Positions 9,434 through 23,464 of a DNA stretch of 64,000 nt are shown in pieces. The position numbers were made by a program, and so were the translations under genes. Positions within the stretch are counted from its first letter, which is position 1. Each line of letters opens with the position of its first letter. A model generated the notes under the pieces. That model was given only the letters and a program-made list of their open reading frames with translations, searched no databases and was not told the origin of the DNA. The DNA is from Blumeriella jaapii (Eukaryota > Ascomycota > Leotiomycetes > Helotiales > Drepanopezizaceae): contig VWND01000095.1 of assembly GCA_009599575.1 (NCBI GenBank), positions 682,001 to 746,000 on the forward strand. Reading direction: 5' to 3'.

Positions 9434-11682
9434 GCGCTCTTCGTTGCATGTTTTGTAGCTTGCAAGTCCGGTGTTGGGGAGAGATATCGTGGTTTAGTGC
9501 AGAGACAGGCCAAGTTTTATGATGGACCGTCTACGGACTGGAGTGGGAAGGGGAGGGTTGGGAGGGGGGAGGCAATTGCTCCGTAGTTCTGATATGATAT
9601 CTGTATTAGCATTCGAATGGATTGGATTGGACTAGATTGGATTGGGTACCCTTCCCTTTTCTTCCTTCCCTTTCTTCCTTCGCTTTCTCCCCTCGCCTCA
9701 TCTCACTTCACCTTGTCTTTCTCCTGCTCAGGCAGGCAGGCGAGCGAGAGGGTTTCCGGCTCCGGTTCTGCTTTTTCTTTTGCTCCTGCTTTGCTTTTGC
9801 GGGATGTTTTCGCGGGACGTTTTCAAGTGCACGCGCATATGCTGTACATGTGTTCATGTTCGTGTTCAAGCTTCCTCTTTGCTGGTGTGTTTTTGTATTA
9901 TAATGGTGTGTACGGCTTATTTGGATATTTGGATGGATGTGTGTATGTATGGATTTACATGTGTATGTACATCTGTATCTCTGTCTGTAAAACCAGGACC
10001 CCCCTCCTCTCCCCTCCCCTCCACGTCCTCTTTCGTTCCACACCATCTACTTTCCACCCAACAATCAATAGCCGAGATATCGACTCGGGACGTAAACAAG
10101 GGACGTCGAACGACAACGAACGCCACATAGGGAAAGCCTCTTCTTTTTTCCCTTACTTGAATAAGGTGTCGTTTGCAGATGGTGGTTATCTGAGGCGTGG
10201 TGACAAGAAAGCATTGCCGGACAGACGGAACGGCACCTAACGCGTGTGGAGTGCTGCTTTGCTTTGCAACACTCCCGAGTCCTCGACGAATGGGAGCTAC
10301 GTGCCGGCCAGCGTCTGCTCCACGGTCACGGCCGCAAGACGTCCTGGAGAGCGGGATGCTGTCGCATGTATTGCTCGCGTCCACCAAGAGCCAGCCAGCG
10401 TCTGTTGACAGCCCGCCGTTCGACCTCGCTTTAGCCGAGCCCCGGCTCGTCTGCGTCTGGAGCTCCACGCCTCTCCCATCACGGTGCCGCTGATCGCCTT
10501 GTCGTCGCCGCCATACACGCCCGTTGCCTTGACACAGCCGGGCGAGGTGTGCCCGTACGACCGCGCACCCCGAGGCTGGAGCCAAGCTGCGCCGGTCGTG
10601 GGCCACGACGACGGACGTTCCTGTGTCCGAGGCCCGCCCCGACACGGGAGCCATGGAGCCAGGGGGCCATCGTCCGACGATGGCAGGAGCACGGCCGGGT
10701 CGGAAAGGAGCCTCAACCGCGATCGAGAAGCAAAAGTCGTCGAGTAGCAGGCTGGTGCATGTGCCGGGTTGGCCGGAAGCCGCGCGCGGGGCCTGCGACA
10801 GCCCTTGCGGTGGTGCTGGCTTGAACCGGGCCCGGTGATTCCCCTGCGTGTTTATTGTGTAGTAGCTTCTTTCTGCACGCGGTTCTGGGACCTGAGCTCG
10901 CAGTCTGCGGTTGGAGCCTGATGCTTGACCCAGCTGGCTCTTGGGCCGGGAAAAGTGATGGCTTCATGTTGGTCTGTGGTCGCCTTCGGGCAGTCGGATG
11001 TTGTGTAGACGTCGCTGTCGGCGGTGCTGGCGAAAGCGAAGATCTGTACCAAGCACATTTCCTTACCGCGAGTCCATTGCCCGACCCAGTTGAGCTTGTT
11101 CGCAGCATCGCATCGTCGGCTTAGGGATCAACCAGGAGGCCAGCGGTACAGGCTGCTTGGACTGCTGTGCGTGCTGTCCACGCAGAGATACATGAGGACT
11201 GCGCCGATGTACATCTGGAATCACCGTCGAGCATGCGATCGCGAGTAAAGGAGAGAACGTCGGCCACGAGCAGTAAACGCGTCGTGCCCAAATGTTGGCG
11301 CGGCACTGGATAGCATCACAACTCGACTGTTGACAGCTCAGGGGCACAGGGTCGCTTAGAAGGTCTCGCGGGCTGGGCTGGGGGAAGACCCGAAGAGAAA
11401 GAAGAAAAAAAAAAAAAAATCTCGCAAGAACCTGCACGCGATTGTGATTGTCTCTATCAGCATGACGTTCTGAAATGAAGTAGAGTGTTTCTCTGCGTAT
11501 TCTCCTATCTTTCTTTCATCCTCCAGAAGAAGCCCTTGAGATGAAATGCTCTGCTTGTGGTGACCGAGTTGTCGCTCCGGCCTCCCTCGCTTATCGAAAG
11601 CGCTAGTCACACAAAACTTGCATTGCGATATGTAAGCAGCGACAGGCTTCAACGGCATCAATTAGAATCGACCACGATTCAA
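9434..11682. other. Intergenic, GC-rich block with open frames on both strands
   Basis: 2.25 kb without a recognised gene. From 9600 to 10050 the plus strand is pyrimidine-rich. From 10200 to 11130 composition is GC-rich, and open frames of 120-245 codons occur on both strands (for example 10654-9917 and 10716-10297 on the minus strand). None shows a domain, signal peptide or conserved start, and their Arg/Ser/Pro-rich content is what GC-rich non-coding DNA gives. A poly-A stretch lies at 11405-11419. A fast-evolving or degenerate gene in 10250-10830 cannot be ruled out. Confidence 0.45.
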
Positions 11683-11824
11683 GGTGCATTGGTCTAGCGG
11701 TATGATTCTCGCTTAGGGTTCACTCTAAACATGATTGCGAGAGGTGTAAGTTGCCATTCGAGCATATCAACCCTTCTTCACATGCTAACGTAGTCCAGCC
11801 CCGGTTCAATCCCGGGATGCGCCC
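11683..11824 (+). tRNA. tRNA-Pro (anticodon AGG) with two intervening sequences
   Basis: The mature parts form a complete cloverleaf: acceptor GGTGCAT (11683-11689) pairs with ATGCGCC (11817-11823), one G-T wobble, discriminator C at 11824. The D arm is GGTCTAGCGGTATGATT, the anticodon stem CTCGC (11708-11712) with GCGAG (11737-11741), the loop TTAGGG plus T (AGG at 11715-11717), and the T arm CCCGG-TTCAATC-CCGGG (11800-11816). Intervening sequence 1 (11719-11735, 17 nt) is in the standard place after base 37, and its CTCTAA can pair with TTAGGG, as in normal pre-tRNA. Intervening sequence 2 (11746-11798, 53 nt) splits the variable arm (AGGT before, C after). It begins GTAAGT, contains GCTAAC 10 nt before its end, and ends CCAG, like a fungal mRNA intron. 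A and B boxes are intact. Mature length is 72 nt. Confidence 0.88.
11746..11798 (+). other. Spliceosomal-type intron inside tRNA-Pro
   Basis: A 53-nt insertion in the variable arm of the tRNA gene. The 5' end GTAAGT matches the donor consensus, TGCTAAC at 11783-11789 matches the branch site, and TCCAG closes it. The length equals that of the protein-gene introns in this window (51-59 nt). Deleting it exactly restores AGGTC plus a perfect T stem. The position is away from the anticodon loop, so the tRNA splicing endonuclease would not be expected to recognise it. That it is spliced is inference. Confidence 0.62.
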
Positions 11825-11851: not shown

Positions 11852-11867
11852 TTTTTGCACTTTTTTT
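11852..11867 (+). terminator. Pol III T-run terminator of tRNA-Pro
   Basis: T5 at 11852-11856 and T7 at 11861-11867, 28-43 nt past the tRNA 3' end. This is the normal kind of RNA polymerase III stop and supports the locus still being a Pol III unit. Confidence 0.6.
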
Positions 11868-21760: not shown

Positions 21761-23464
21761 CTACCCAACCCAGCTCCGCTTCTTCCCCTCCTTCAGGCTA
21801 TCCACAATTATGCACTTCCCATGACTCTGGCACACCTTGCTCCGGCCCAGATTCTTCCACCGAGGCCCCAGCGGCCCATTCACGTAGTGGTACTGGCCGA
21901 CGAAGCGCCATTGCCGCCAGTCACCCAGGCTGTAGAATTTGTCGCCCCAGCGCCCGCTGAACCACCACCAGCCCATCGGCGCCTCCGGGTTGTCGAGCGC
22001 CGGCTGCAGCGACTCCGCCATGTGCGCTCGCGGCAGGTTCGTCGTCATCATCCGCGCGTCCACCCCGTGCGTGATGGACGTGTTGAAGTGGTACGCCAGG
22101 TAGTTCTGCGCCGGGTCCCACAGAGGCCCGCGGTCCGTCACGTCTGCCAGCAGGCCAAAGGGCAGCACGTACGGGTGCGAGCCCGGCTGCGCGTACATGG
22201 CGTGACTGCCCAGAGCGCTGTAGATGACGGGGCGGCCCTCGCGGCCTTTTCCCTTGCCCTTCTCAACCGCAGCATAGGAGTAGGCGAGGCCGCCGGAGTG
22301 CGCGGAGAAGAAGACAGCCTTGGGAACGCCGTTATGGAAGCGGATGAGTGAGTGCTCCCAGTCACCGACGTGGTTGCCAAAGCGGATGTTGAGAACTGTG
22401 GTGCCCAGATTGTAGGAGTAGAAGTAGAACCAGTAGGCGTCGAGAATGCCGGAGCCTTTGTCGACCAGGACGAGAATGGCTGGAGCTGGGGAGTAGCCGC
22501 CTGGCTTCTGAAGGGTTGGGTTGCGTTTCTTGAGGTCCTCGCGGAAAGAGGCCTTGAATTTGGCTTGTTGCCGAGCCTGAGACTGGAAGGTAGACGTGAT
22601 GGGCGCGGAAACCTTGTGCTTGGGCCCGTAGGGATCGAACCACGTCTCGAGGTCTTCTTCGTTGGGAACAGCCCCCGATGAAAATTGCTCGTAAACGAGC
22701 TCTTTTGACTCCAGTTTGCTCTCCTCATTCTCGTCATCCTCCTCTTCGTCCTCGGCATCATACGGCACAGGCTTGTTGAAGGCACTGCTCAACCACTCCG
22801 GCCTCTCCTCCACATCGTCCTTGCTTTGCAAAAACACATACCGTCCCTTCCTCCCCTCGTTCAACTCTAGCAAATTATACTCGTCCGGCTGGTAGCCGGT
22901 TATGTTCAGATCCGTGTAATTCGAATACGGCATCACATGCCTCAAATGCTCCCGAATATCGCTCGGCCAGAACTGCTCTCGAGAACACAAGTGCACCAGC
23001 GGCGCGTGGTCGAGCACGAACCGCGGGACCTCCTTCAAGACCCTCGCGTCGCCCTCCCAGTCCCCCGGCTTCATGCGCTCCCCCGAGCCGGGGATCTGGT
23101 CCCACACGTACTGGGCATCGACGTCCTCGCCATCTCCTTCTTCCGGCTCATCATCCACCGTCTCCTGCTCCATCAGGATCTCCTGCTCATGCTTGATCCT
23201 CATCTCGCGGCGGTTGCCACCCCGCCGTTTCGTCCACGGCCGCACCGCCGGATCCGGGTGCCAGTGCGCGAGTCCGCACAGGCCGATGAAACGGCATGCC
23301 TGGCGGTCGAGCCAGTATTTGGACGTGGAGATCCAAACCCGATCCTCGCGCTGCTCGTCGGACTTGTGTTCGTTAGGGTCGAGATGGTCCTTGAGGGCCG
23401 AGAGACCGAAGACCGAGGCTACGATGAGCAGGGTGGCGATGCCGCCGCGGACGAGGAACTTCAT
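21761..23464 (-). CDS. Vps62 family protein
   Basis: Member of the Vps62 family (PF06101), related to yeast Vps62/Tda6, which were linked to cytoplasm-to-vacuole protein sorting; biochemical activity unknown. One exon, 567 residues, start fixed at 23464. An N-terminal membrane anchor (GIATLLIVASVFGLSAL) is followed by an acidic insert (around residues 100-120 and 245-265, Glu/Asp-rich) and the conserved core: QIPGSGERMKPGDWEGDARV, PRFVLDHAPLVHLCSREQFW, PAILVLVDKGSGILDAYWFY, RFGNHVGDWEHSLIRF, AVFFSAHSGG, VIYSALGSHAMYAQPGSH and GWWWFSGRWGDKFYSLGD. It ends in a basic tail. The C-terminal KCIIVDSLKEG segment is family-like. A complete and ordinary gene. Confidence 0.93.
   Translation of the reverse strand: MKFLVRGGIATLLIVASVFGLSALKDHLDPNEHKSDEQREDRVWISTSKYWLDRQACRFIGLCGLAHWHPDPAVRPWTKRRGGNRREMRIKHEQEILMEQETVDDEPEEGDGEDVDAQYVWDQIPGSGERMKPGDWEGDARVLKEVPRFVLDHAPLVHLCSREQFWPSDIREHLRHVMPYSNYTDLNITGYQPDEYNLLELNEGRKGRYVFLQSKDDVEERPEWLSSAFNKPVPYDAEDEEEDDENEESKLESKELVYEQFSSGAVPNEEDLETWFDPYGPKHKVSAPITSTFQSQARQQAKFKASFREDLKKRNPTLQKPGGYSPAPAILVLVDKGSGILDAYWFYFYSYNLGTTVLNIRFGNHVGDWEHSLIRFHNGVPKAVFFSAHSGGLAYSYAAVEKGKGKGREGRPVIYSALGSHAMYAQPGSHPYVLPFGLLADVTDRGPLWDPAQNYLAYHFNTSITHGVDARMMTTNLPRAHMAESLQPALDNPEAPMGWWWFSGRWGDKFYSLGDWRQWRFVGQYHYVNGPLGPRWKNLGRSKVCQSHGKCIIVDSLKEGKKRSWVG

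Follow-up and report, generated by a model that had tools for sequence, protein, structure and literature searches.

A tRNA-Pro(AGG) gene of Blumeriella jaapii interrupted by a canonical tRNA intron and a spliceosomal-type intron

Can a nuclear tRNA be matured by the spliceosome? The question is raised by a tRNA-Pro(AGG) gene that lies in the window, by which we mean the whole stretch of 64,000 nucleotides that was analyzed (C91:682001-746000 of a Blumeriella jaapii genome searched over 47.37 Mb and 91 contigs). The initial annotation had claimed that this gene forms a cloverleaf only if two segments are removed, namely a 17-nt one at the standard site after base 37 and a 53-nt one in the variable loop carrying GTAAGT, GCTAAC, and CCAG, and had weighed a spliceosome-matured tRNA against a silenced gene copy. 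The anatomy bears out each of these particulars, and we put at roughly 0.87 the probability that this is a functional nuclear tRNA-Pro(AGG) gene, whose precursor would contain two introns, one spliceosomal and the other destined for the tRNA endonuclease.

Anatomy of the window gene

The gene is encoded on the forward strand in three exons. Exon 1 (11683-11718; bases 1-37, reading GGTGCAT..TTAGGG, with the anticodon AGG) contains an A-box-like internal Pol III promoter element, TGGTCTAGCGG (11690-11700), and is followed by the 17-nt canonical tRNA intron between bases 37 and 38 (11719-11735; i(37,17) in the notation of ARAGORN). Folding predicts a helix between this short intron and the anticodon region, and its 37/38 site is that of canonical tRNA introns. 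Exon 2, TGCGAGAGGT (11736-11745; bases 38-47), is separated by the 53-nt spliceosomal-type intron (11746-11798), inserted between T47 and C48 of the variable loop, from exon 3 (11799-11823; bases 48-72, CCCCGG..GCGCC), which comprises the T arm and the 3' acceptor strand and harbors a B-box-like element, GGTTCAATCCC (11803-11813); base 73 is C (11824). The 53-nt segment opens with the donor GTAAGT (11746-11751), ends with CCAG (11795-11798), and presents a branch-site-like CTAAC, within GCTAAC, 9 nt before its end (11785-11789). Further downstream are T5 (11852-11856) and T7 (11861-11867) runs, which are likely Pol III terminators (11852-11867). An A box, a B box, and a T-run terminator are all present, as read by eye from the sequence against the consensus motifs.

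ARAGORN calls tRNA-Pro(agg) only with the 53-nt insert out. With that segment removed and the intron mode on it returns tRNA-Pro(agg)i(37,17), and with both segments removed it returns tRNA-Pro(agg), the only form that is called without the intron mode; a complete cloverleaf with the anticodon AGG is obtained once the introns are out. No tRNA is found by ARAGORN in the full window gene or after removal of the 17 nt alone, nor is one found in the unspliced window gene by a cmscan search against Rfam.

Further interrupted tRNA genes

A DNA search of the genome recovered, in addition to the window locus, one more Pro(AGG) gene on a different contig (C35:109037-109178, minus strand), with a T5 run shortly 3' of the gene and a 52-nt insert at the same site, GTAAGT..TCTAAC..TTCAG; ARAGORN likewise finds no tRNA in this copy when it is intact or lacks the 17 nt alone. 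The exons and the 17-nt tRNA intron are identical between the two copies (88/88 bases). The two inserts show 30 identities in 50 aligned pairs upon global alignment (Fisher p=8e-11 for exons plus tRNA intron versus insert), and their interiors, taken without the first 7 and last 4 bases, show 18 matches versus a shuffled mean of 21.2, with 933 of 1000 shuffles reaching 18. With interiors at the shuffled level and exons fully preserved, the exons appear to have been held while the insert drifted to near-randomness, the only features shared by the inserts being the splice signals; the exon identity could partly be due to gene conversion. The spliced variable loop, AGGTC, is by eye the same as that of the Pro(CGG) and Pro(TGG) genes L005-L007, and the borders of the insert are therefore fixed by the tRNA itself. 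In both copies these tRNA-fixed borders coincide exactly with GTAAGT and CAG, with insert interiors that are otherwise unrelated. The two-intron tRNA-Pro(AGG) gene is thus confirmed as a real feature, beyond chance. As a separate observation, the 100 bases upstream of the two genes (window 11583-11682 and the corresponding part of L002) show 68 matches versus a shuffled mean of 51, a resemblance that might stem from upstream elements in common or from an ancient segmental duplication.

A genome search for other intron-bearing tRNA genes, a check proposed with the initial annotation, recovered, along with the second Pro(AGG) copy, two Gln(CTG) genes and one Arg(CCT) gene. The pattern CTAAC..YAG with a B box further downstream gave nine matches (versus 14 in the control), comprising one Gln(CTG), two ordinary tRNAs (Ser, Asp), and six without a tRNA. 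The Gln(CTG) gene found thereby on C1 combines a 54-nt GTATGT..CGCTAAC..GTGAAG insert in the D loop with a 20-nt canonical intron. Its 5' exon pattern, searched with up to 3 mismatches, yielded 14 matches in the genome (versus 10 in the control), two of them exact, on C1 and C13; the 14 include two Gln(CTG), one Gln(TTG) recognized by eye, two His, the interrupted Arg(CCT), and eight in which ARAGORN sees no tRNA. The two Gln(CTG) genes, L050 (L050:1501-1645; C1:2439127) and L051 (L051:1501-1650; C13:823172), each carry a canonical intron and, at the same place in the D loop, a GT-AG insert (2/2) of the form GTATGT..CTRAC..AAG, 54 nt long in the former and 61 nt in the latter. Their exons are identical at 71/71 bases. 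The insert interiors are weakly similar, with 20 matches versus a shuffled mean of 16.2, a value reached by 42 of 1000 shuffles, and the 3' end is largely shared.

In unspliced form, L050 is not recognized by ARAGORN, and L051 is called as Met with an intron of 80 nt. If the insert is taken to end at AAG, just before TAGCAC, both copies give tRNA-Gln(ctg), and the Gln(TTG) gene in L052 by eye has GGT joined to TAGCAC without an insert (ARAGORN labels it Ser). Of the alternative acceptors, the nearby YAG yields no tRNA, and the adjacent TAG yields Ser(aga) in one copy and Val(gac) in the other. Because a TAG follows directly and a YAG lies 5 nt upstream, the use of the AAG acceptor is uncertain; AAG in an AAGTAG context is less usual, and constitutes the weakest point of the Gln case.

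The Arg(CCT) gene (L057:1501-1622; C18:515718) lacks a canonical intron and has a 51-nt insert in the T loop (L057:1559-1609), GTGAGC..CTGAT..TAG, whose CTGAT lies, counted by eye, 9 nt before the intron end. A T7 run is found downstream. ARAGORN recognizes tRNA-Arg(cct) once the insert is excised, and no tRNA while it is in place. The Arg case is weaker, with one copy seen. Moreover, G-U pairs make up 4 of the 7 in its acceptor stem, and its B box is cut in two at the DNA level by the insert; the gene could for these reasons be decaying. Judged from these sequences, all four genes found for two isoacceptors, and one for a third, bear spliceosomal-type introns, which occupy three different tRNA positions.

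Uninterrupted copies and the question of silenced genes

The foremost alternative to a functional Pro(AGG) gene is that intron-like insertions have turned these copies into silenced pseudogenes, with Pro(UGG) and Gln(UUG) decoding by wobble. The genome indeed has other Pro genes, two CGG and two TGG, and the Pro(UGG) tRNA of yeast is able to decode every proline codon, both of which count for this alternative. Its bearing on Pro(AGG) turns on an uninterrupted copy, which the initial annotation had named beforehand as the finding that would speak against splicing: none was found by the genome pattern searches, which a strongly diverged gene could escape. When up to 3 mismatches were allowed, a 28-nt pattern of the Pro exons recovered five genes (control 0), two AGG, one CGG, and two TGG, of which both AGG genes are interrupted, and an uninterrupted 27-mer around the insertion site, again with up to 3 mismatches, a single match (control 0), a Pro(CGG) gene. 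TTAGGR followed by a B box at 14-44 nt gave seven matches (versus eight in the control), none a tRNA by ARAGORN, and with the B box at 45-75 nt two matches (versus 13), both on contig C36, which lay outside the ARAGORN check. A separate genome pattern search returned seven matches (control 2), namely the two Pro(AGG) genes, three matches on C36, and two without a tRNA by ARAGORN (L008, L009). Another returned eight (control 7), two of them Pro(AGG); among the remaining six, the five considered (C17:362942 being left out) show no tRNA by ARAGORN, which could miss an interrupted one. An Rfam tRNA search listed 60 matches and scored 63 of 2167 candidates, and its list is for that reason no inventory; the 37 listed matches outside C36 include an additional Pro(CGG) gene (L100) and, by the ARAGORN labels, neither a Pro(AGG) nor a Gln(CTG) gene.

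Two side observations emerged from these searches. C36, which accounts for the other 23 listed Rfam matches, is rich in tRNAs, and its tRNA matches recur at spacings of about 51 or 61 kb; it probably represents a mitochondrial genome whose circle was traversed more than once in the assembly. In addition, ARAGORN shifts the introns of two Pro(TGG) genes (L006, L007) and one Gln(TTG) gene (L052, identified by eye) and labels all three Ser(tga); where fungal tRNAs bear introns, anticodons assigned automatically accordingly need checking by eye.

A review of tRNA introns, in the part of its text available, states that arm insertions in eukaryotic tRNA genes mostly affect one of many synonymous copies and are taken as pseudogenes (PMC4090602), a description that might also suit the Arg(CCT) gene, whose acceptor is rich in G-U pairs and whose B box is interrupted by the insert. 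For Pro(AGG) and Gln(CTG), however, the insert is present in every gene found and not in one of many, and we reject silencing by a unique insertion for these isoacceptors, as both copies found of each carry inserts. Furthermore, unselected copies would be expected to drift in exons and inserts alike, whereas the exons are identical between copies and the inserts have drifted. Finally, CCC and CCT make up 72 of the 160 Pro codons in seven ORFs of the window, one of them taken in part, which also argues against a silenced Pro(AGG) set. Altogether, the presence of inserts in both Pro(AGG), both Gln(CTG), and one Arg(CCT) gene favors a putatively spliceosome-matured tRNA over a silenced copy, and we consider the latter unlikely.

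Splice signals, maturation, and precedents

All five inserts are of the GT-AG type with a GTRNGT-like donor, GTAAGT..CAG in Pro (2/2), GTATGT..AAG in Gln (2/2), and GTGAGC..TAG in the one Arg gene, and none of the five genes is called right by ARAGORN when unspliced, the right call being obtained in Pro 2/2, Gln 2/2, and Arg 1/1 after GT-AG excision. Conserved exons around a drifting intron body are seen in the Pro and Gln pairs; Arg is a single copy. In a deletion scan of extracted sequences of at least 2900 bases, we deleted each segment of 44-70 nt that had GTRNG as donor, CTRAY as branch site, and AG as its end, and scored a hit when ARAGORN reported a tRNA spanning the new junction that it had not reported in the intact sequence. 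New tRNAs were yielded by 14 of the 228 GT..CTRAY..AG candidates, all at the five tRNA genes (Pro in seven overlapping records, Gln in six instances, three ending in AAG and three in TAG, and Arg in one), versus 0/282, 3/203 (all inside the Gln gene of L051), and 0/177 for the false donors GARNG, CARNG, and TTRNG; the scanned DNA being enriched for these genes, the scan gauges false positives, not genome frequency.

For comparison with mRNA introns, we collected intron-like segments that bridge ORFs from 42 sequences (237 kb, a few overlapping). A looser first pass gave 554 candidates versus 700 in the control without a branch filter, and 84 versus 61 with it. The ORF-bridging candidates with a GTRNGT donor number 27, versus 10, 7, and 2 for three false donors, and among the 15 of 44-70 nt the distance from branch to acceptor is 8-13 in 13, the set being small and inclusive of false positives. 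The Pro, Gln, and U6 inserts (see below), at 51-61 nt and with a CTRAY branch close to the acceptor (9, 10, 11, and 11 nt in Pro and Gln, 9 nt in U6), fit these candidates. Over 268 kb of strand-sequence, the complete set of signals is present 3 times versus a shuffled mean of 1.0, which we count, like the looser first pass, against the proposed reading. The claim of the initial annotation that the insert shares its signals and length with the mRNA introns of the window stands only roughly: the bridging candidates exceed their false-donor controls, in a small set. Avoidance of TTTT in the inserts was considered as a sign of Pol III transcription and set aside as uninformative, given that 0/15 comparison introns contain TTTT either.

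U6 snRNA is a small RNA made by Pol III, and its genes in fission yeast and other fungi are known to bear mRNA-type introns, providing a likeness to the present case in that a small structured Pol III RNA is interrupted by a short U2-type intron. In those systems, however, the host is an snRNA, whereas here the hosts are tRNAs, and the Pro and Gln precursors additionally have an endonuclease-type intron. A study by Canzler et al. from 2016 is reportedly devoted to U6 introns. In the present genome, a U6 search gave one match over the cut-off (82.8 bits) and four others below, and the former contains a 51-nt segment, GTAAGT..TACTAAC..CATCAG, between GGTC and AATTTG (C7:1619206-1619256; L029), which we read as an intron of the kind known in fungi. 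This putative intron suggests that, in the genome at hand, the spliceosome acts on a small Pol III RNA. The U6 intron also holds TGGTCAAGCGGT, and, as this resembles an A box, may contain promoter information.

A second alternative to spliceosomal excision is that the inserts are non-canonical tRNA introns, cut by the tRNA endonuclease at bulge-helix-bulge sites as in archaea and Cyanidioschyzon, and introns outside the anticodon loop do exist in some lineages according to the available text of the tRNA-intron review (PMC4090602). We nevertheless hold this to be highly improbable: the Pro inserts differ in sequence and fold and have no shared border helix (a weak argument, from single-sequence folds with the L002 stretch offset by one base), and the shared signals GTRNG, CTRAY, and AG would not be needed by the endonuclease. 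Retention of the insert, which would leave the RNA with an enlarged variable or D arm, is scarcely credible, given that its sequence drifts (and in Gln its length too), that tRNA-Pro is a tRNA with a short variable arm, and that the unspliced forms are unrecognized as Pro or Gln by ARAGORN.

Returning to a functional Pro(AGG) gene with two introns, we infer the following course of maturation. Pol III would transcribe the gene by way of the A and B boxes, which are intact, and stop at the T run that follows. The spliceosome would then remove the 53-nt U2-type intron, with U1 on GUAAGU, branching at CUAAC, and joining at CAG, which would restore the 5-base variable loop AGGUC and with it the tRNA body. 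Removal of the 17-nt intron after base 37 would thereafter fall to the tRNA splicing endonuclease and ligase; since the eukaryotic endonuclease needs an intact tRNA body, the spliceosome would be expected to act first. The same arrangement would apply to the two Gln(CTG) genes, with the spliceosomal-type intron in the D loop, and, in the Arg(CCT) gene, the spliceosomal-type intron would be removed from the T loop, there being no canonical intron.

Canonical nuclear tRNA introns are at 37/38, and the 17-nt intron is of this kind; the 53-nt insert, in contrast, is at another site and has GT-AG ends and CTAAC. Fungal U3 snoRNA genes are a further likeness, in that a structured non-coding RNA is cut by the pre-mRNA machinery, and the available portion of the 2017 paper describing them states that, among small structured RNAs, frequent interruption by an intron is known for U3 and U6 alone (PMC5832005); U3, unlike the Pro and Gln genes, is a snoRNA without a tRNA intron. 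Non-canonical tRNA introns of archaea, cryptophyte and chlorarachniophyte nucleomorphs, and Cyanidioschyzon merolae likewise occur outside the anticodon loop, sometimes beside a canonical intron. In the accessible text of the review, those of archaea and C. merolae are attributed to bulge-helix-bulge sites and the tRNA endonuclease, in contrast to the spliceosomal signals of the present inserts, and the mechanism by which the nucleomorph introns are cut is called unknown (PMC4090602). In the same text, nucleomorphs and Cyanidioschyzon are the eukaryotic settings given for non-canonical tRNA introns, insertions in the arms are otherwise regarded as presumed pseudogenes, and the word stem "spliceosom" is absent. 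Handling of non-canonical introns by tRNAscan-SE 2.0 is described for archaea in the available part of its paper (PMC8450103). Within the openly licensed literature, to the extent of its available text, we found no precedent for a spliceosomal intron in a nuclear tRNA gene. The Pro exon pattern had 0 matches in viral contigs and 0 in a collection of contigs from other genomes.

It appears quite likely that the only Pro(AGG) and Gln(CTG) genes found need both splicing systems, that Arg(CCT) may need the spliceosome, that the precursors pass the spliceosome before or alongside the endonuclease, and that more such tRNAs may be hidden, as tRNA finders miss them unspliced. If this is true, nuclear tRNA introns would no longer be the preserve of the tRNA endonuclease, as the rule has it, and the spliceosome would be capable of acting on a Pol III precursor that is short and has, in addition, to adopt the tRNA fold. 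Because the precursors would have to pass the spliceosome, the supply of Pro(AGG) and Gln(CTG) decoders would depend on it, linking decoding capacity to the spliceosome. Such genes could also explain apparently missing isoacceptors in annotations, with ARAGORN calling none of the five unspliced genes right and Rfam missing the window gene.

Elsewhere in the window, a single-exon gene on the minus strand (21761-23464) codes for a VPS62-like protein with 85% identity to its counterpart in Drepanopeziza brunnea and 75% to that in Diplocarpon rosae.
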